Source: a virus | Virus record (IMG/VR): IMGVR_UViG_3300006165_000019 | Location: 1 to 36,584 of that record | Strand: one strand, 5' to 3' | DNA: 36,584 bases | In this document: piece after piece, positions 4,160 through 30,835 of the stretch | Position numbering within the stretch: position 1 is the first letter of the stretch | How the letters are laid out: the number at the start of each line of letters is the position of its first letter | The notes under the pieces: model-generated | What the model was told of the DNA's origin: nothing | Databases searched by the model: none | What the model saw: only the letters and a program-made list of their open reading frames with translations | Translations under genes and position numbers: made by a program

Positions 4160-7100
4160 TGAGTAAAAACCGTAGCAAAAGAAACACTAAAGAGGCTTTG
4201 AAAAAAATAAAAGCCAAACGTACTCGTGTAAAATATAATGGTGGTGGTTATCAAAGCGGCTCATCTTTAGGCTATACTCCTCCGACAGGCAACACCATAA
4301 CTGAAATACCTGTTTATATAGACGGCGATGGTAAACCTGTTTATACACAAGGTTTTCAAGGTGATCTAGGAGATGGTGGTTATTTCACTGGTGCTCAACC
4401 TGCGTTTGGTAGCGGTGCTGGCCAAGGTGTAGGTGGCGGAGCTTATCAAGGTGGAACGTCTGGTGGAGGTAGTGGCTCAGGATCTTCTAACGACAGCAGT
4501 AGCGGCCAAGCTACTAGAAATAGAAGTGGAATAGATCCTAACGTAGAACAAAAAGAAAAAACACCTGAAGAACTGCATCAAGAGCTCGTAGATCTGGGCT
4601 TGGCTACTGGGCCTTTTGAACCTACTGAGTTAGATATAGCTGCGCCTACTGATATAGAATTAGATATTGCTCCCCCTACTGCGACTAATCCAGATGGTAG
4701 TGACTTTAATACTTCCTCAGCTCCGGCAGCAAATACAAGTAGAAGGAGAAGTAATCCTTTTAAAAATCTTTTTGGAAAAAACGATACTGAAGATGAAGGC
4801 GCTGAAGCTGAGGCTACTAATGACGGCACACTAGAAGACGGTAGTGATGGTGGCGGAAGCAGCCCTGATAGTGAAGATGGTGGCAATAACCAAGCTCCAC
4901 CTCCAGTTGTAGAACCTATTGATGAAAAAGAACCGACTACAGGCGGTAAGGCTGATAATCCTTTTGATAAAGAATATACTTCTCGTGGAGGCGCTACATA
5001 TTCTAAAGCCGATTTAATTCGTATTTCTGGAGGCAGTGAAGAGAAGTTACAAGATCTAGAAGACAGTGGGTATTTTAACACTGTAGATGGTCAATCGTGG
5101 AAGGCCCCAGTAGATTCAACGGGCGTGTATAACGATGACGGAACTCTTAATCTTTCTAACATCGAGGCAGATTTAGGTTTAGACGGTCAAGAGGGGCCTG
5201 ATTTAGGAGATGTATCAGCAGGAGATGAAATTGTTGAAGCCGGTGACGAAGGGTTTACTTGGCAGGGCAAGGTGTGGGATGCCGCTAAAGGAATAGTAGT
5301 TAAAACTTTAACAGGTGCAGCGATAGGTGCGGCAGTTGGAGATTATTATGGCATGTCTAAATCTATGGTAGCAAAACTTTTAGGCAAAGAAGCTTTTAAA
5401 GGTGCTGTAATAGATGAAGCAACAGGCGCTATAATTGATATTGCTACAGGGCTTCCAGTTTTAGGTGCTCCACTACAAGCAATACTAGATTTTAAACAAG
5501 GTATAACAGACATCCCAGCTAATATTTGGGACTCAATAACCCCATCAAGCACCCCAATGTTAGGCACGTCAAGCACGACAATTAATACAAATATGGGCTA
5601 CGACTCTGCGGGTAACATCCAGCTTGGTGGAGGAACTGCTTGGAGTGGGACTGTTAACGACAGCGGCGGCACTGCAACTGTATCACCTGCTGTTGCGGGG
5701 GAAATTACTTCAACTACAAACCCAATCAAGGTTCCAGACCCAAAGCCTGAAGACCTTGAAGTCACAGAAGATGAAGATGAAGTAGTAGCAACAGATTCAA
5801 CAACATATGATAATACTGAACTCGGACAAGTTTTAAACGGTTTAAATCTTGGCGGGACAAACGGAGATAACGGCATGGCACTTAATGAAATAATTGACGA
5901 GGTAACTGATTTAGCAGGTACAGCAGCCCCTATAGACGCTTTAGATACTGTTACTAAAACAGATAAGACTTTAGTTACCGCTGAAGACGATATTCAAGAG
6001 TTAGGCACTATAACTAAAGCTACAGCGCCTACGGTGAGTGCTGGTGTAACTACCTTAGAGCCTGTTGACGCTGGTGAAGCTACCACAGTAAATCAAATGG
6101 AAGAGCCTGTAGCAGCTCAGACAGTAAACACAGTTTCAGCGGATCAGGTAAAGCAGCAAAAAGCTTCTGAGGCTTTTAGTCTAACACCTGAAGCTGCTGC
6201 GTTCAAAGAAGCAAGTGATGCACATATGGCTAACCCTGAGCGAGCGGCGCTAGCAGAAGCTTATCAAGTAGCAGGCACTTCAGGCCAGCAAGGAGCAGTA
6301 GCACAAGCTCAAGCAGCCTTAAAAGCTTTTGATTCAGACTTTATCGCACAGGCTCAAGCCTTTCAGGGCAAACAACAAGAGTTTATGTCTACCTACGGAG
6401 ACGCTAAAGCTGTTACAGGCGCAATCTCCGAAGGCTCTACTGCCGTTTCAACTGACGCAGCGATGTCTACAGAGGCTACAGTAGCTGACCGTAACACAGC
6501 AGCAGAGCAAGCGGCGTTGGCAGAGAACGTAGGCTTTGATGTCTCTACGAAGTCTACAGTAGACCCTGTGACGGGTGAAAAGATCATAGTAGCGGCAACA
6601 CCTGCGGCAGAAGCGGCACAACGTGATGCAATTACTGACGATACTTTCACTCCAATGGAAGCCGCACAGATTACAGCAGTACTAGGTTATGACATTACTA
6701 AAACTCGTGCAGTTAAGGGTGAAGCCGCTAAAGGTGCAGCCTCTGAGATGCTTGCAGAAGTAGGTGATCTACCACCAGCAATCACAGCAGCTATTGTAGA
6801 AGACCCTGAAAAAGTAGTAGCACAATTAGATAATGAGCCTGTTGAAGTAAGAGCAGCTATTGCAGCGTTACCTATAGAAGCTTTAATGTCTTCGCAGATG
6901 GAGAACTTGTTAGGTTCGTTAGAAGAAAATAAAGTTCCAGCGTGGGCAAGACCTGCCGTAGATGCAACCAATGCAATGTTAGCTAAAAGAGGTTTATCAT
7001 CTTCTACTATCGGTCGTGATTCTTTATTCAATGCAATTATTCAAAGTGCTTTACCTATTGCTGAAAATAATGCTAACGCTTTACAGAAACGAGCAGCCCA

Positions 7101-12290: not shown

Positions 12291-15200
12291 ATGTCAGATA
12301 CACTACTAAATAGAATCAAACAAATGCACTCTAGTTTAGATAACTTTGAGGGTGGGCCTACAGAGCCTTTATTATCTGAGGAAGAAATAAATAGAGTAAC
12401 ATCTTATAAGCGCCCGTCTGTAACTAACTTTGAAAATGATTCTGAAGTCGTTAGAGATTATGATATTCTAACCTCTTACTTAGGTGATCATCAAGACTTT
12501 GCAACTAAAATGCTTGACAGTGATTCAGGCCCTGCTGAGTTCTTGCGTGATGATTTTTTACGCATCACTGCTGTGGCGGGTAAAGCTGCTGCTTTGTCGG
12601 ACGCACCTGAAGATGTTAAACGAGCTTATAGAGATCTCAGAGCTAAGTGGGAAGACACTAAAGTTACAGGAACAAAAGAAACGATTGACGCTGCTAAAGA
12701 CTACGGCATGGACGTACTAGCCAACTTCGAAACATTACCCACTGCTCTTTCTTTAATATTCGGCAATGTGGGAGGCGCCACGGCGCAAACTGCTGTACGT
12801 ACTGGGGCTAAAACAGCACTTGCTAAAGTCTTAGCTAAGGCATCATCTAACCCCATTAAGAGCACTGCTGCTTATACAGGTGCTATTTCAGGCATCCAAG
12901 ACTTAGCAGTTCAAGATCTTGAGGTTGAAATTGGCGAGCGTAAAGATGGCATTGATTTAGGTCAAGCAGCTACGGCGGCTGTGTCGGGTGCGGCCATTGG
13001 TGGTGCTCTTTCATACGGTATAGGCAAAGTAGCTAGTAAGTATGCGACTAAAAGACTTACTGACGATTTAGAAAACACACCTGCAATACGTGAAAGCGAA
13101 GGCACGTCTTTGTTTGATGAAGGCATCGACGGTGAATGGATACCGGCTAGTGGTAGTAAGGTTGTCAACGCTGCTGATCGTTTACTAGAAGGCCCTGAAG
13201 GGTCTGTGGTAAACATGAAAGATGTGGATGTAGATAATGTTGTTAACGATTTTGTAAACGACATAGGTGGCGGTGATGCCACTAAAGAAGAATTTAAAGC
13301 GGTAGTAACTGGGGCATTAAACTCTGGCGCTACTGGCGCACAGATTAAAAATAAATTAGCTTTCAGTGTCTGGCAGTTTACTACAGACTTAACTGGCAAT
13401 TTATTCGGTAAGAGTGCTGGAGTCTTAACTCCATATACTAAGTTCTCTAAAACAGCTAAGACTTTGCAAACACGTTTAAGTCATGAGTTTGCAGAGGGCT
13501 TTGGAAAAACTAAAACACGTATTGGTATGGATTTAAGCGAAGCTCAAGCACGATACACAGGTGAGTTTAATACACGATACTTAAAAATCGTAGAGCCTTT
13601 AGCTTTAAATACAATTAAAGGTGATGTCTCAGACAAGGTTAACGATCTACTAAATCAAGCTATTCGTGGAGACTTTAAAGGCGTACCAAAAGAAATAGGT
13701 ATTGCAGCTAAACAGATTCAAGGTCTATATAAAACTATAGGTGATCAATTATACTCTGAAGGCGTTATAGCTAATAAAATAGAAAACTATATTCCCCGTA
13801 TGTGGAATAGGAAAGCTATTGAATCTGACCCTGAAAGATTTGAATTACTACTCATGAAATCTGGTGAAGCTAAAAATGCAGCCGAAGCTACACGAATTAA
13901 AGACAGCATGTTAGATATTGAAAATCAACTCGACGGTGGTTCAGGCGGTCAGTTCTTCGCTGCTAAACGTAAGTTTACATTTGAAGATGATTCTGTATTT
14001 ACAGATTTTTTAAATACTGATTTAATCGGTATGACTGCGGATTATAACTACCAAGCTGGTAAAGCTCTGGCTAAAAAGAAAGTATTAATGGCTTCTAATG
14101 AAAAACAATTTATGAGTCAGTGGATTAATCCTATTGTAAAAGAAATGAAAGCTGCTGGTAAAACTCTTAATAAGAAAGAGCGGGAACAAATTCGAGAGCT
14201 TTATAGATCTGCTACTGGTGAAAACATGGAGCGTTATGGTTCAAAAATGCAGACAGCAGCAGATAGCTATTCACTCGGTACACGTTTAGCTTTACTACCT
14301 TTAGCGACTATTGGTAGTTTAACAGAAGTATTTATTAACATTGGTAAAGCTGGAGTGTTAAACTCTGTTAAAGGTTTTGCTGAAGCGTCTGAGTTAAGCT
14401 TTAAAAAGATGACAGGCGATTTACATTCTGAGCTAATGACAAAGAAAGGCATGACAGCTAATGAAGCTTTTAGAGAGTTAAAGAAACATAGCCTCGCAAT
14501 GGAGCAAGCACAATCTCAAGCAGGGAACCGCTTAGGTGGTGACGATTTTGCTTCAGACACTATGCAGAAAGTAAGCAATAAGTTTTTCCGTATGAACTTC
14601 CTAGACCAGTGGACTAAGTTTGTACAGACAACTTCGTATATAAGCGGTCGGAACTTGATTGAAGAAAACATAGAGAAGCTTGCAGTTCATGGTAATCAAC
14701 CTGTTACACCACGCATTGAGACTTTAAGAGGCGAACTCTTAGAACTTAACATCGATCCTGATGATGGTATTGCTTGGTTTAAAGGGGGCGCTAAAAAAGA
14801 AGACGCTTTTACTGGTCAAATAAATAACGGAGCTGCACGATATACTAACTCAGTAATCTTACAGCCTTCTGCAATGTCAGGTTTAAAGCCGCTACTACAC
14901 TCTAACCCTAGAACTATGATAGCTTTCCAACTATTAGGCTACCCCGCAGCATTTACAAACACAATCCTTAAAGGGGCTGCTAAAGCTGTAACAAGAGACG
15001 CAGGACGCAGCGTACCTAAGCTGGCAATGGCTGGTTTGTTGATGACTGAAACAGCTCGGATGACTAACTTCTACCGTAGTAATGGTAAAAGTGAAAGAGA
15101 CACCACGCCTACAGAGGCTCGTCTTTCAGCTATAAAACGTTGGGGTGGTAACGGTATGTTGTTTGATAACTTACAACGGGCCAGTGATGCTGCAAAGTAT

Positions 15201-17690
15201 TCAGGCACAATAACCGGATATGCTACTGCACCTTTTGGGCCTATAGCTACTGACGCTTTAGGTTTAGCTTACGGTAAATATAATCAAGTATTAGGCACTA
15301 AGGTTCCTTTCTTTGCGGCAGGCTCTACTGTAGTTGGCCCTGAGAACATGCGTAAGTATAAAGACATGCTACGTAAAAGAGATAAAGACTTAGGCGGTCT
15401 TGTTCCTAAGTTTGAGTATGACATACAACGACAACAATTCCTTAAAGGCGGTGTTGTTGAAGTGCCTAACGCTCCTAAAGAACCAGATGAAAGAATTAAT
15501 AAAGTCACTGGTTTGCCGTACAACTACCAAGCTGGCTCAGCTTTCATGGACGAACTAGACCCTAAGAAAACAGAGCGACAAGGATTCAGTATTGGATCAC
15601 TTGTAACTAAAGGAGCTACAAAGCTTTCAGGTTACTTAGCTGAGACTATTAACGATGCAACAGATGGTATTTTAGACCCTCGATTAATTAACGATGCAGT
15701 CGATGGCATAAAAGAGTCTGCTGGTTTAAGCGGCGCTAAAGGACAGGCTGATGAGTTCTACGACCCAGACCAAGCTGACTTCGGAGCTATTGCTGGCTCT
15801 CAAGCAGATGAGTTTGGCGGTGAAGAAGAGCTTGAGGAATACATAGCGTTAAGTATGAAGACTATTTTAAGGGAAAAGGATCAAGATGTCAAGCCTTATT
15901 CTAAAGAAACTTTAGCTATACAGGAAAAGAGTAATGGAGAATACGGCGAAGACTTCCAGATCTCTCGTGGATACACTCAAGATGAGATAGACGATTTTAG
16001 TTATCAAGCTGAGATGGGCGATGAAGCTGATCCCGACCAGAGCTTGTTTGCAGACATTGCTTTCTATCTAACGGAAGCCCGTGAAGCGTCTAAAGCACAC
16101 GTAAGTACGTTAGCGCCTTCAGATAAGTTAGAACAGGTACAAGGACTAGAAGATATTGTAGATATTTTTGCTAGGAACAGTAAGTTCATACCCTCTGAGC
16201 AAATTACCAATGAAGGTAGACGTAAGATTATAACTAACTACATTGCTAACAATTCTGATAACGCTGAACTGATGACAACTTTAAAGTCTATGCAAGCTGA
16301 TTCACCTAAAACAATGGTAGGTCAAGAAGGCGTGGTAGCTGAAGACGTGAGGTTAAAGAACCTAGAAGGCTTTTTAGAATCATCTATTGAAAAGACTCCT
16401 AAGTTCCGAGGCATCTCTGACTTCGCAGAAAAAGACTTTGAGGTAGCCTTTGTATCCCCTAGAGAAATGGGTGTACACGTAGGTACTGAAGGCCAAGCAA
16501 ACTACATGGCAGCTAAAGGAATCAACGACCTTAAAGCTCAAGACGTGTTATCAATCCCCGGCTCTGGTGGTCGTAAAATGGAACGTTCTGAAATGGATAG
16601 GTTCTTTGCAGATGAGCAGGCTCGTCGTGAAGGGATAACTATGGAAGATGTAGACTTTGAGGACATAACTCCAGATGAGCTAGACCAAGTAGGCTCAATG
16701 GACTTAGCGCCTTCTAGTGATATGCCTAGCGTTAGTATAATGAAAGGCTACGTGAACGTTAAGAACCCGTTAGTCTTCCTTACAGATGCTTCTAACTGGT
16801 CAGCAGAGAACCTTTTAAGCTCATCTTCTGATCAACTTATGGACGCACTCGAGTCTGGATTAGGGAAGAAGATACCTAAGAAATTCCAAGATAGATTAAA
16901 TGTCTTAATGGTAGATGCTTTAGAAGTTCCTGCTCTCCCTGACATCTTTAACAGTTCAGAGCAGTTACTAACAAGTAGCTTACGACAAGTGACACTAACT
17001 AAAAAGCTACAAAAGCTTTTAGAAGACATGGGTTTTGATTCTATTAAGTATCGCAACATGGTAGAGCCTTCATTGAAAGGTGAAAAGACTAACGACTCTT
17101 ATATCTTATTTCGACCTGAGCAGTATAAGAATGTAAATGCTAGTAAGTTTGATAAGGCAGATAAGCGCATGATGTTTAATGAAGGCGGTCGGATAGGTGG
17201 CACATTCTGGGCTAGAGATTATAATGCTGAAGATCGCCCACTTGAAGATCGAGTCGCAGATTATAATGCAGCTCAGAATATTGAAGTCACAGATGCCGTA
17301 GTGAATTCTGTAAACTCAGCCTTAGAGAGTGGGGCTTTTGATTATGAGATCGCCGATTTAAACTTACCCAAAGAAGAGTTTAAAACTGGCATGGTTGATA
17401 TTTCTAAAATTGAATCTGCTGGTGGTAACTTACCTAAAGAAAGTCAGGTTAGTTCAACAGGCGCACAAGGTTTATTCCAAGTGATTGAAAGCACAGCTAG
17501 GAGTGTATTAGAGAACGGACAGTTTGGCCCAAAGGCAGCTCAAGCAACTGGGTATACTTTAGATGAACTTAATAATATGGATAGAGCACAGTTACAAAAT
17601 AAATTATTAAACGACGATAACCTTAATGCTATGTTTTCTGCCGCTGTAATAGTACAGAAACTACAACACACACGTAACAAATCACAGTAA
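12291..17690 (+). CDS. Giant internal virion protein with ADP-ribosyltransferase-like domain and C-terminal truncated SLT domain
   Basis: This 1799-residue protein would be ejected with the DNA if it corresponds to T7 gp16. Residues 145-260 contain Gly/Ala-rich hydrophobic helices. Residues 360-1000 form a long helical body (including MNFLDQWTKFVQTTSYISGR). Residues about 1380-1620 look like the ART-PolyVal family: H1396 in MGVHVGTEGQAN, Y1487 in GYVNVKNPLVF, then MGFDSIKYRN and E1610 in SYILFRPEQYKN, giving an H-Y-E type triad. Residues 1700-1799 match the start of a lytic transglycosylase: E1708 in SKIESAGG and STGAQGLFQVIESTA. The protein stops before the usual AAYN motif. In T7 gp16 the transglycosylase is N-terminal, so its C-terminal position here is unusual. 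The GGAG site is in the end of the preceding gene. Confidence 0.85.
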   Translation: MSDTLLNRIKQMHSSLDNFEGGPTEPLLSEEEINRVTSYKRPSVTNFENDSEVVRDYDILTSYLGDHQDFATKMLDSDSGPAEFLRDDFLRITAVAGKAAALSDAPEDVKRAYRDLRAKWEDTKVTGTKETIDAAKDYGMDVLANFETLPTALSLIFGNVGGATAQTAVRTGAKTALAKVLAKASSNPIKSTAAYTGAISGIQDLAVQDLEVEIGERKDGIDLGQAATAAVSGAAIGGALSYGIGKVASKYATKRLTDDLENTPAIRESEGTSLFDEGIDGEWIPASGSKVVNAADRLLEGPEGSVVNMKDVDVDNVVNDFVNDIGGGDATKEEFKAVVTGALNSGATGAQIKNKLAFSVWQFTTDLTGNLFGKSAGVLTPYTKFSKTAKTLQTRLSHEFAEGFGKTKTRIGMDLSEAQARYTGEFNTRYLKIVEPLALNTIKGDVSDKVNDLLNQAIRGDFKGVPKEIGIAAKQIQGLYKTIGDQLYSEGVIANKIENYIPRMWNRKAIESDPERFELLLMKSGEAKNAAEATRIKDSMLDIENQLDGGSGGQFFAAKRKFTFEDDSVFTDFLNTDLIGMTADYNYQAGKALAKKKVLMASNEKQFMSQWINPIVKEMKAAGKTLNKKEREQIRELYRSATGENMERYGSKMQTAADSYSLGTRLALLPLATIGSLTEVFINIGKAGVLNSVKGFAEASELSFKKMTGDLHSELMTKKGMTANEAFRELKKHSLAMEQAQSQAGNRLGGDDFASDTMQKVSNKFFRMNFLDQWTKFVQTTSYISGRNLIEENIEKLAVHGNQPVTPRIETLRGELLELNIDPDDGIAWFKGGAKKEDAFTGQINNGAARYTNSVILQPSAMSGLKPLLHSNPRTMIAFQLLGYPAAFTNTILKGAAKAVTRDAGRSVPKLAMAGLLMTETARMTNFYRSNGKSERDTTPTEARLSAIKRWGGNGMLFDNLQRASDAAKYSGTITGYATAPFGPIATDALGLAYGKYNQVLGTKVPFFAAGSTVVGPENMRKYKDMLRKRDKDLGGLVPKFEYDIQRQQFLKGGVVEVPNAPKEPDERINKVTGLPYNYQAGSAFMDELDPKKTERQGFSIGSLVTKGATKLSGYLAETINDATDGILDPRLINDAVDGIKESAGLSGAKGQADEFYDPDQADFGAIAGSQADEFGGEEELEEYIALSMKTILREKDQDVKPYSKETLAIQEKSNGEYGEDFQISRGYTQDEIDDFSYQAEMGDEADPDQSLFADIAFYLTEAREASKAHVSTLAPSDKLEQVQGLEDIVDIFARNSKFIPSEQITNEGRRKIITNYIANNSDNAELMTTLKSMQADSPKTMVGQEGVVAEDVRLKNLEGFLESSIEKTPKFRGISDFAEKDFEVAFVSPREMGVHVGTEGQANYMAAKGINDLKAQDVLSIPGSGGRKMERSEMDRFFADEQARREGITMEDVDFEDITPDELDQVGSMDLAPSSDMPSVSIMKGYVNVKNPLVFLTDASNWSAENLLSSSSDQLMDALESGLGKKIPKKFQDRLNVLMVDALEVPALPDIFNSSEQLLTSSLRQVTLTKKLQKLLEDMGFDSIKYRNMVEPSLKGEKTNDSYILFRPEQYKNVNASKFDKADKRMMFNEGGRIGGTFWARDYNAEDRPLEDRVADYNAAQNIEVTDAVVNSVNSALESGAFDYEIADLNLPKEEFKTGMVDISKIESAGGNLPKESQVSSTGAQGLFQVIESTARSVLENGQFGPKAAQATGYTLDELNNMDRAQLQNKLLNDDNLNAMFSAAVIVQKLQHTRNKSQ

Positions 17691-19673: not shown

Positions 19674-19940
19674 ATGAACATACATGAACTACCAATGGTA
19701 CGTTTAACTTGGCAGGATGCACAAGATAGTGATGGGTGTTGGACTTCTATAGAAGATATTATAGCACATGAGACGGCCACCTGTCAAGAGGTAGGGTGGC
19801 TAATTCACCAAGATGACAATAAAGTAATTGTAATGCGCTCAAGGATTGTTGAAGGCGATGAGATCAGGGAGGGCAGCTCTCACATTGCAATACCTGCTAG
19901 TTGGGTTTTAAAGATAGAGGTACTAGAATGTTTGGATTAA
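19674..19940 (+). CDS. Conserved small phage protein of unknown function
   Basis: This 88-residue acidic protein reads VRLTWQDAQDSDGCWTSIEDI, then EVGWLIHQDDNKVIVMRSRI and IAIPASWVLKIEVL. Short proteins of this pattern (a T/W-D-A-x-x-x-D-G-W start and a GWL strand) are common near lysis genes of marine phages, as I recall, and have no known role. AAGGAG lies 5 nt upstream of the ATG. Its 3' end overlaps the next gene by 13 nt, and that gene's Shine-Dalgarno lies inside this one. Confidence 0.75.
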   Translation: MNIHELPMVRLTWQDAQDSDGCWTSIEDIIAHETATCQEVGWLIHQDDNKVIVMRSRIVEGDEIREGSSHIAIPASWVLKIEVLECLD

Positions 19941-20416
19941 TCACAATGCTCTTGTCAACCCTTGGTGCTACAGGCATGGGGTCTATGTTAAAGATCCTTG
20001 GTGGGGCTGTACAGGCTCGCAACGAGGCCAAGGAAGCAGAGGCTAAACGAGAACTGATTCGAGATATGCAGATGAAAGGTGCTGATCTTGAGTTTCAAAA
20101 GGCTATATTCGGAGACGCTACTAATGACCCAGAAGCAACTATATTTACCCGCACTACTCGTAGGCTTATTGCTCTTATCGGGATGCTCAACTTTGCAACC
20201 ATCTCAATACTTTGTACCCTCTACCCAACCGTCGAGCTTGTCACCTTCATACCCCCAGAGCAAGCAAAAGAAATCAGCATCTTGTGGGGACTCTATAGAA
20301 TGCCAATCGACCAAGGGATTACAGCTGCCATCACTACTGGGCATATATCTCTTGTCTCAATCAGCACTCTGGGAGCTATAATAGGTTTCTATTTTACTCC
20401 GGGCGGTAAAAGATAA
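19928..20416 (+). CDS. Three-helix membrane protein, holin-like (GTA_holin_3TM type)
   Basis: The start chosen is the ATG at 19928, with AGAGG 6-7 nt upstream, rather than an in-frame start at 19901 that overlaps more deeply and lacks a site. The 162-residue protein has a hydrophobic N-terminus (2-28), a charged helix (30-60, AKEAEAKRELIRDMQMKG), a membrane segment at 79-98 (RLIALIGMLNFATISILC), and another at about 138-156. This layout fits the 3TM holin family seen in gene transfer agents and marine phages. Bases 20124-20381 also encode a lipoprotein in the +1 frame. Over that stretch this gene uses many C-ending codons (ATC, CTC, GTC, ACC), unlike its TTA/ATT-rich neighbours, as expected for a doubly coding region. 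Confidence 0.75.
   Translation: MFGLITMLLSTLGATGMGSMLKILGGAVQARNEAKEAEAKRELIRDMQMKGADLEFQKAIFGDATNDPEATIFTRTTRRLIALIGMLNFATISILCTLYPTVELVTFIPPEQAKEISILWGLYRMPIDQGITAAITTGHISLVSISTLGAIIGFYFTPGGKR
20124..20381 (+). CDS. Nested Pro/Ser-rich lipoprotein, candidate o-spanin (Rz1-like), in the +1 frame of the holin-like gene
   Basis: An 85-residue reading frame lies wholly within the 3TM gene in another frame. GGAG lies 9 nt before the ATG. The protein begins MTQKQLYLPALLVGLLLL and then has the lipobox L18-S-G-C21, so signal peptidase II would cut before C21. Ser at +2 fits outer-membrane sorting. The mature part (about 65 residues) is Pro/Ser-rich (STLQPSQYFVPSTQPSS) with two further Cys in SASCGDSIEC. 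Size, lipobox, Pro richness and out-of-frame nesting match Rz1-type o-spanins, which fuse the outer and inner membranes at lysis. The odd feature is the host gene: it looks like a holin, not an i-spanin. Chance is possible, because a Leu/Ile-rich helix can read as hydrophobic in another frame. Confidence 0.6.
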   Translation: MTQKQLYLPALLVGLLLLSGCSTLQPSQYFVPSTQPSSLSPSYPQSKQKKSASCGDSIECQSTKGLQLPSLLGIYLLSQSALWEL

Positions 20417-20442: not shown

Positions 20443-20634
20443 ATGAGCGCAGCTAAGAAGAAAACTAAATCAAAAGTAAATGAGGCAGGTAATTATACTA
20501 AGCCTACTATGCGTAAACGTTTGTTTAATAAAATTAAAGCCAGCACTAAGGGCGGCAAGGCCGGTCAATGGTCTGCTAGGAAGGCTCAGATGCTTGCTAA
20601 AGAATATAAAGCAGAAGGAGGAGGATACAAATGA
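20443..20634 (+). CDS. Small basic protein of the DUF5872-like type
   Basis: This 63-residue protein is very Lys/Arg-rich and contains KGGKAGQWSARKAQMLAKEY followed by KAEGGGYK. That W-S-A-R-K-A-Q ... GG-Y motif recurs in small proteins of phages and giant viruses (DUF5872, from memory). AGAGG lies about 6 nt upstream of the ATG. It is the first of four short basic genes in tandem. Nucleic-acid binding, for example DNA condensation in the capsid, is a guess from charge. Confidence 0.8.
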   Translation: MSAAKKKTKSKVNEAGNYTKPTMRKRLFNKIKASTKGGKAGQWSARKAQMLAKEYKAEGGGYK

Positions 20635-20804
20635 AAGGCGTTGATCATTATAAAAAAGATGGCACACTCCATAAAGGCACTACACATAAAATGCCTGACG
20701 GGTCTTTACACACGAATAAAAGCCACACTAAAACTAGCGTGAAGTTATTCCATTTAAAAGATTTATCAGTTAAAGCTAAAGTTAAAGCTAAGGGTAAAAA
20801 ATAA
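20631..20804 (+). CDS. Small basic His/Lys-rich protein (57 aa)
   Basis: This gene is short and easily missed. Its ATG overlaps the stop of the previous gene (ATGA), and its TAA overlaps the next ATG (TAATG). GGAGGAGG lies 7-8 nt upstream. The product begins MKGVDHYKKDGTLHKG, has THKMPDGSLHTNKSHTK, and ends in a KVKAKGKK tail. The pattern DG-x-x-H-x-G-x-x-HKMPDG is, from memory, seen in other marine phages beside similar basic proteins. The tight coupling on both sides makes the call convincing; the function is unknown. Confidence 0.8.
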   Translation: MKGVDHYKKDGTLHKGTTHKMPDGSLHTNKSHTKTSVKLFHLKDLSVKAKVKAKGKK

Positions 20805-21058
20805 TGCCGATGAAAAAGTCACAGAAGTCTTTAAAGAAATGGACTAAAGAGGATTGGGGTACGAAGTCTGGTAAGCCAAGCACTCAAGGCAAGACGGCTA
20901 CAGGTGAAAGGTATTTACCTAAGAAGGCTAGAGAAGCGTTAAGCTCTAAAGAGTATGCTGCAACGACAGCTAAGAAACGTAAAGATACTAAGGCGGGTAA
21001 GCAGCACAGTAAGCAACCTGCAAAGACTGCAAAGAAAACAGCGAGGCATAGAAAGTAA
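20804..21058 (+). CDS. Small highly basic protein (84 aa)
   Basis: This Lys/Arg/Thr-rich protein has SLKKWTKEDWGTKSGKPSTQ, then TGERYLPKKAREALSSKEYA and a basic tail ending KKTARHRK. The W-x-T-K-S-G-K-P-S ... G-E-R-Y-L-P motif is a recurring phage family without a known role. It starts on the stop codon of the upstream gene and ends on the ATG of the next (TAATG at both junctions), so the four basic proteins must be made in a fixed ratio. No acidic patch or membrane segment is visible. Confidence 0.8.
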   Translation: MPMKKSQKSLKKWTKEDWGTKSGKPSTQGKTATGERYLPKKAREALSSKEYAATTAKKRKDTKAGKQHSKQPAKTAKKTARHRK

Positions 21059-21348
21059 TGGCTAAAGAAAAAGATTCTAAGTTAAAGAATGCAGGAGTCT
21101 CAGGATATAATAAACCTAAGAGGACTCCAAGCCACAAGACTAAATCACATGTGGTTGTAGCTAAGGTAGGGGATCAGACGAAGACTATACGCTTTGGAGA
21201 ACAAGGAGCGAGTACGGCAGGTAAACCAAAAGCCGGAGAGTCTGCCCGTATGAAAGCAAAACGTGCCAGCTTTAAAGCTAGACACGCTAAGAACATTGCA
21301 AAGGGGAAGATGTCTGCGGCTTATTGGGCTGACAAGGCTAAGTGGTAG
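21058..21348 (+). CDS. Small basic protein of the DUF6321-like type
   Basis: This 96-residue protein contains GVSGYNKPKRTPSHKTKSHV, VVVAKVGDQTKTIRFGEQG and, at the C-terminus, RHAKNIAKGKMSAAYWADK followed by AKW. This combination is a recognisable phage family (DUF6321, from memory). It is the last gene of the late block and overlaps the convergent gene on the other strand by 11 nt. A DNA-packing role is guessed from its charge and co-occurrence with three other basic proteins. Confidence 0.8.
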   Translation: MAKEKDSKLKNAGVSGYNKPKRTPSHKTKSHVVVAKVGDQTKTIRFGEQGASTAGKPKAGESARMKAKRASFKARHAKNIAKGKMSAAYWADKAKW

Positions 21349-30511: not shown

Positions 30512-30835
30512 TCACATTTGGTATGTGTTGTCAACTACTATTTCTACTGTCTCTTCAACTACTGGTGTAGGTTCTACTTCTACCTCTACTTCCACCTCGA
30601 TAGGTTCTGGTACAGACTCTACCACCTCTACCTCAACAGGTTCTGGTACAGTCTCCACTACCACAACAACAGGTTCTGGTGTGATGTCTATGACTAACGG
30701 GCCAGCTTTAGTCTCAACGATTTCAATCTTAACTGGCATGGGTGTTGGTTCAAAAACTTCTACGACTCGTGGTGCTTTATCTTCTGAACTACAAGCTGCT
30801 AAAAATAATACACTTACTAATGCTAATGCTTTCAT
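30512..30835 (-). CDS. Lipoprotein with Val/Glu/Pro repeats
   Basis: This 107-residue protein has a textbook lipoprotein signal: MKALALVSVLFLAACSSED, with lipobox L12-A-A-C15 and Ser at +2, so outer-membrane attachment is expected. The mature part is almost all Pro, Glu, Val and Thr in alternation (VPEPVEVEVVESVPEPIEVE), an extended, strongly acidic rod that recalls the Glu-Pro region of TonB. GGAG lies about 8 nt upstream of the ATG. It sits among replication genes rather than in the lysis region, so an early periplasm-spanning role such as superinfection exclusion is as likely as an o-spanin function. No family is recognised. Confidence 0.8.
   Translation of the reverse strand: MKALALVSVLFLAACSSEDKAPRVVEVFEPTPMPVKIEIVETKAGPLVIDITPEPVVVVVETVPEPVEVEVVESVPEPIEVEVEVEVEPTPVVEETVEIVVDNTYQM

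Follow-up and report, generated by a model that had tools for sequence, protein, structure and literature searches.

The window, a 36,584-nt stretch of viral DNA, contains a gene for a three-transmembrane (3TM) protein that carries a second, complete gene for a predicted lipoprotein in its +1 frame. Judged by comparison with its homologues, and in the absence of expression data, there is hardly any doubt that the nested ORF is a genuine gene under selection for its lipoprotein signal. We consider it likely that the locus represents two superimposed, co-selected late genes, a holin-like gene in frame 0 and a lipoprotein gene in the +1 frame whose product is most likely an o-spanin; expression and the roles of both products in lysis are inferred.

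The nested gene and its homologues

The host gene (19928..20416; plus strand, like all features below unless noted) encodes a 162-aa protein, which is described as holin-like on the basis of hydropathy, charge pattern and weak similarity to GTA_holin_3TM. It consists of TM1 (about residues 4-27), a charged helix (28-79), TM2 (about 80-98), a loop (99-136), TM3 (137-156) and the C-tail TPGGKR. The ORF 20124..20381 lies wholly within this gene, in the +1 frame, and a Shine-Dalgarno-like GGAG motif (20111..20114) is located 9 nt before its ATG. The 85-aa product reads MTQKQLYLPALLVGLLLLSG and then CSTLQPSQYFVPSTQPSSLSPSYPQSKQKKSASCGDSIECQSTKGLQLPSLLGIYLLSQSALWEL, with a short n-region, a hydrophobic core, the lipobox LSGC (20175..20186) and a mature part of 65 residues. 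Cys21 of the lipobox (20184-20186) is formed by the ATG of host Met86 together with the next base. An earlier note on this DNA, made from the letters alone, had given the coordinates, frame, length, GGAG spacing, signal peptide and lipobox, and all of these are correct. Directly upstream, an 88-aa gene of unknown function (phrog_25889, 19674..19940) overlaps the start of the 3TM gene by 13 nt. Four short Lys-rich ORFs follow in a row immediately 3' of the 3TM gene (20443-21348), and several of them are kept in relatives.

At least 366 relatives were recovered from IMG/VR by profile pattern. Clade A comprises the best 80 relatives, with 65-96% identity to the host protein, and clade B consists of 80 distant relatives that were reached via a MAG contig at 37% identity; further family members were added from two more scans. 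The host proteins of the two clades are about 37% identical. When the host and nested proteins were searched by tblastn against 50,697 phage records, no isolate match was obtained, or only noise at E 0.2-0.8.

Over 69 codons around the lipobox the +1 frame was open in 158/158 distinct homologues, while the other four frames were open in 14, 19, 47 and 0 of the 158 and contained 1.1-10.5 stops on average. A valid lipobox combined with an open frame was present in all 157 distinct genes tested for it, the frame being open for at least 31 codons before the Cys and at least 49 after it in each case. The lipobox types were LSGC (84), LSAC (19), LWGC (14), LLGC (12), LVGC (11), LGGC (9) and others (8). 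Host-synonymous resampling, using the codons that these genes have outside the overlap, yields a mean probability of 0.0011 per sequence for a lipobox plus open frame by chance. As the homologues share ancestry, these per-sequence probabilities must not be multiplied. The earlier note had held that the dual-coding claim would fall if homologues kept the 3TM protein and lost the nested frame. None of the 158 distinct genes does so; the frame is open and the lipobox conserved or relocated in every one.

The start site of the nested gene is kept within the subclade of the window (the window itself and L001-L026), in which GGAG 9 nt upstream and the ATG were found in 23 of 26 distinct sequences. 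Elsewhere in the family a GTG, a TTG or a shifted ATG stands about 16-35 codons before the Cys. In L038, L039 and L071 no ATG, GTG or TTG is present within 14-38 codons upstream of the Cys, and L038 has ATT where L036 carries ATG. Start usage outside the subclade is therefore uncertain. Conservation of the start codon was not retained as key evidence, because start triplets arise frequently by chance and change between lineages.

Synonymous constraint and the lipobox relay

The third positions of the host codons are the second positions of the +1 codons, so that nearly every synonymous change in the host gene alters the nested protein. Observed and expected synonymous differences were compared in a Synplot-like manner between neighbouring leaves of a FastTree tree. 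Because a simple model was used (HKY among synonymous codons) and the pairs are not fully independent, the contrasts matter and not the absolute z values. In clade A the ratio of observed to expected differences was 1.21 for codons 1-65, 0.83 for codons 66-151 (z -5.8) and 1.39 after the nested stop (codons 152-162). The lowest value, 0.52 (z -6.8), was obtained for codons 76-90 (20153..20197 in the window). The subclade of the window taken alone gave 1.25, 0.79 and 1.43, and the same pattern was found in the remaining clade-A sequences. In clade B the corresponding ratios were 1.29 (codons 1-45), 0.83 (46-138) and 1.20 (141-154). As measured with this model, the synonymous dip begins and ends with the nested ORF, independently in two clades. 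Depressed synonymous substitution in the overlap had been proposed as a check on dual coding, and the substitution is indeed depressed there and normal on either side.

Single codon columns of the host gene were inspected around the lipobox. Host Gly85, which precedes the Met that supplies the Cys, is GGG in 64 and GGC in 8 of the 72 distinct clade-A sequences, hence in all of them (GGG in the window), and these two codons place Gly or Ala at position -1 of the lipobox. Most other conserved Gly columns show mainly GGT or GGA. Further codons are nearly invariant in clade A, namely Thr77 as ACT (71/72), Leu83 as CTT (69/72) and Ala82 as GCT (68/72). Going by these columns, less favoured codons are retained precisely at the positions on which the lipobox depends.

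In clade B, columns 72 and 78 of the host protein are both Met, and the Cys can come from either of them. The downstream box is dead in 24 of 67 sequences (SLEW, SSEW, SSEC and similar), owing to a G after Met78, which turns the Cys codon into TGG (Trp), or to SSEC. In all 24 of these sequences the upstream box, six codons earlier, is valid ([LH][VGA]GC with G at -1). Of the 43 sequences with an intact downstream box, 27 carry Val as the -1 residue of the upstream box, and Val at this position (27 sequences) was seen only together with a live downstream box. At the codon level, R71 is CGT (Val) in 27/46 sequences with Cys78 vs 0/21 with Trp78 (Fisher 1e-6, not phylogeny-corrected). About 3 relocations of the lipobox are needed on the tree, and several clade-B sequences have both boxes, as expected of an intermediate. 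Inferred from the alignment as it is, this lipobox relay is hard to explain except by selection for a lipidated product.

Predicted roles of the two products and competing explanations

The host protein is extremely conserved in the stretches MFGLITMLLSTLGATGMGSMLK, TRRLIALIGM, TTGHI and GFYFTPGGKR. Three to four K/R are located directly before TM2 in 39/39 sequences, and the mean charge is -1.85 for the TM2-TM3 loop and +1.87 for the C-tail. Charge and hydropathy fit an N-out/C-in topology like that of class I holins, with helix 28-79 predicted to be cytoplasmic. Pfam and PHROG searches with the host protein gave nothing above cut-off, and a PDB sequence search gave no match. GTA_holin_3TM (PF11351) remained below its curated cut-off, with a best E of 0.041 and a match in only 2 of 28 members. 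With hhalign, the RcGTA-type subset of PF11351 reached a probability of 80-86% over only about 53 columns, and the probability was low with other subsets. AlphaFold models of the host protein built from 28 or 39 sequences had a pLDDT of 54-55, which is too low for a fold search. GTA_holin_3TM proteins and other class I holins have three TMs, a charged segment before TM2 and a predicted N-out/C-in topology, as hydropathy and charge predict for the host protein, and the end of TM3 ('LGAI..FYF') is similar. Unlike the host locus, none of 30 PF11351 genes examined has a nested +1 lipobox. The resemblance to GTA_holin_3TM, seen at the sequence level, is suggestive only. That the host protein is a holin appears reasonably probable; this assignment rests on 3TM topology, context and the weak GTA-holin similarity, and lesion formation and timing are inferred.

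For the nested product, residue +2 is S, V, L, A, Q or P across the family, never D, and Ser in the window. In E. coli lipoprotein sorting is governed by Asp at +2, and lipoproteins without it are directed to the outer membrane. If the E. coli rule applies, the nested product would be sorted to the outer membrane. The mature part measures 49-99 aa and is S/L/Q/P-rich, the S/L/P-rich composition being partly forced by the host frame. A C-terminal TMD was not detected, as 0/161 mature parts exceeded a hydropathy of 1.6, and a u-spanin was ruled out on this ground. The unimolecular spanin gp11 of T1 likewise has an N-terminal LSGC lipobox, but it differs from the nested products by its C-terminal transmembrane segment. 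Searches of Pfam and PHROG with the nested product gave nothing above cut-off, and matches to o-spanin families were at chance level (phrog_456, E 0.11; phrog_8971, E 0.46). Spanins are very diverse, with 125 o-spanin families (PMC6139136). The absence of Asp at +2 and of a C-terminal TMD, together with hydrolase and TM+coiled-coil neighbours in some relatives, supports the o-spanin reading, which we regard as quite likely; disruption of the outer membrane at lysis is inferred. The dual coding claimed in the earlier note has withstood the homologue tests, whereas its labels o-spanin and holin remain inference, as no family match lies above cut-off and no partner was found in the window.

No candidate i-spanin was identified in the window. 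Among the window proteins searched, the sole endolysin-type match is that of a 1799-aa late protein (12291..17690) to phrog_7348 'endolysin'; it is a large internal virion-type protein. In L028, L030, L031 and L050 the 3TM gene is preceded by a gene for a cell-wall hydrolase of PF07486 type whose N-terminus carries a hydrophobic segment (L028, E 1e-15; L031, E 6e-14; L030 and L050 assigned by blastp clustering). A 57-aa TM+coil protein with a weak Rz-like spanin match (E 0.0067) is also encoded 5' of the 3TM gene in these four loci, and phrog_18771 TM+coil proteins are encoded 3' of it. The closest full relative, G300, encodes a 121-aa phrog_20984 TM+coil protein (5247-5612) 3' of the 3TM gene. 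This gene (motif NSEFRIKWPRGELGSLPADARQDM), a candidate i-spanin, is missing from the window at the equivalent site, about 21335-21348. In clade-B G312 and G315 the last base of a phrog_20984 homologue is the first of the 3TM gene. With a strict filter, a TM+coil gene was found within 1.6 kb in 62 of 109 loci with full flanks. One such gene, c19, was tried as a universal partner and rejected, as it is absent from the window and L002-L005.

Some further differences in gene order were observed. L001 and L006-L011 carry a three-gene block of roughly 1.6 kb between the 88-aa gene and the 3TM gene (window site 19920-19928), coding for a phrog_20531-like protein, a 263-aa protein and a TM+coil protein; the window and L002-L005 are without it. 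The 3TM/lipoprotein module is also present on contigs of 100-185 kb (L029, L059, L075 and L078), and a superoxide-dismutase-like ORF occurs among the neighbours of related loci (L053, L061, L068, L071 and L074), which suggests that the module has moved between phages of very different types.

According to the proposed mechanism, late transcription would give one mRNA, with translation of the 3TM protein starting at 19928 and that of the lipoprotein at the internal GGAG-ATG (20124). The lipoprotein would be exported by Sec, lipidated at Cys21 and, with Ser at +2, reach the outer membrane. The 3TM protein would build up in the inner membrane and trigger as a holin, after which the wall is degraded. 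The outer-membrane lipoprotein would then engage an inner-membrane TM+coiled-coil partner, and the pair would disrupt the outer membrane. The sorting to the outer membrane, the roles of the two products as o-spanin and holin, and the partner are all inferred and not shown.

It is possible, though unlikely, that the nested lipoprotein is real and not a spanin, but another kind of envelope lipoprotein, for instance one for superinfection exclusion (Cor-like), whose late co-expression is incidental. A weak phrog_1119 Cor match (E 0.22) points in this direction and is no stronger than the spanin matches. The clade-B module is moreover often located between scaffold and capsid genes; in the T7-like contigs L084, G310 and G311 the 3TM/lipoprotein gene lies between those for the scaffold and the major capsid protein. 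This position is odd for a lysis gene, is not an obvious lysis cassette and counts against the o-spanin reading. However, the lipoprotein is strictly coupled to the 3TM holin-like gene across podovirus-size, T7-like and 100-185 kb backbones, and cell-wall hydrolase and TM+coil genes adjoin the locus in several lineages.

Alternatively, the 3TM protein could itself serve as the partner in the inner membrane, as an i-spanin with additional TMs, which would make the locus an embedded Rz/Rz1 pair of unusual topology. The embedded +1 geometry resembles Rz/Rz1, the helix of residues 28-79 is long and charged, and no separate i-spanin was seen in the window. We consider this improbable, since the K/R before TM2 and the charges of loop and C-tail put the helix in the cytoplasm and separate TM+coil genes lie next to the locus in many relatives.

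The preferred reading, two co-selected late genes, also has to be weighed against an unexpressed +1 ORF that owes its openness to codon choice or composition, as T/C-ending hydrophobic codons give an open, Ser/Leu-rich +1 frame. C-ending host codons are commoner in the overlap than in the surrounding late genes, as had been noticed earlier: the third-base C fraction is 0.31 in the overlap vs 0.15 in the 5' part of the gene and 0.05-0.18 in other late genes tested. The open +1 stretch of 101 codons was reached in 0/20,000 trials when the host codons were resampled from other window genes (99.9th percentile, 63 codons). TM segments do favour an open +1 frame, and permutation of the gene's own synonymous codons, which keeps the bias, lifts the null mean to 45 codons and gives P about 0.0025 for the observed stretch. 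Nevertheless, in both clades the limits of the constraint match those of the nested ORF, the lipobox positions retain less favoured codons and the relocation is not explained by the host frame, which makes an unexpressed ORF very improbable. The idea that the constraint stems from an RNA element or other non-coding signal in the 3' portion of the 3TM gene, compatible with the synonymous constraint taken alone, can practically be dismissed, because the pattern is phased to the meaning of the +1 codons (no +1 stops, hydrophobic run, lipobox; no RNA-folding data are available) and the Cys shifts by exactly six codons with matching -1 residues.

Relation to known spanin genes

Embedded, overlapped and separated spanin pairs have been described, and an embedded o-spanin gene sits within an i-spanin gene (Kongari et al., 2018, SpaninDB; PMC6139136). 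Like the lambda Rz/Rz1 type (PMC6139136), the present locus has a small Sec/lipobox lipoprotein gene in the +1 frame of a membrane-protein gene. However, the host gene of the lambda type encodes an i-spanin with one N-terminal TM and a periplasmic coil, whereas the host protein described here has three TMs and a helix predicted to lie in the cytoplasm, and any i-spanin-like gene stands separately next to the locus. In the open-access literature no report of an o-spanin nested in a holin-type gene was found. On that basis an o-spanin-like gene inside a holin-like gene appears to be new, while the embedding of o-spanins itself was already known. As this deeply conserved lipoprotein gene shows, nesting is not necessarily a mere consequence of the pairing of Rz with Rz1.

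In the widest interpretation, for which we see an even chance, one locus encodes in two frames the lysis effectors of the inner and the outer membrane (holin and o-spanin, the 3TM protein possibly also being the partner), and this arrangement is ancient and can move between unrelated backbones, the lipoprotein signal surviving by jumping between two host Met codons. For a large group of uncultured, mostly marine phages the locus offers a candidate for a lysis component that had been missing, and nested genes of this kind would be missed by gene callers that avoid overlaps. The lipobox relay is also a clean natural example of an overprinted gene that keeps an essential motif while the host frame is nearly fixed.

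A second lipoprotein ORF is located in the early region of the window on the minus strand (30512-30835). Its 107-aa product begins with MKALALVSVLFLAACSSEDK and contains P/E/V-rich repeats; a match to phrog_3198 'Rz-like spanin' (E 6e-4) covers the signal peptide only. A comparable short early lipoprotein is encoded in G304.
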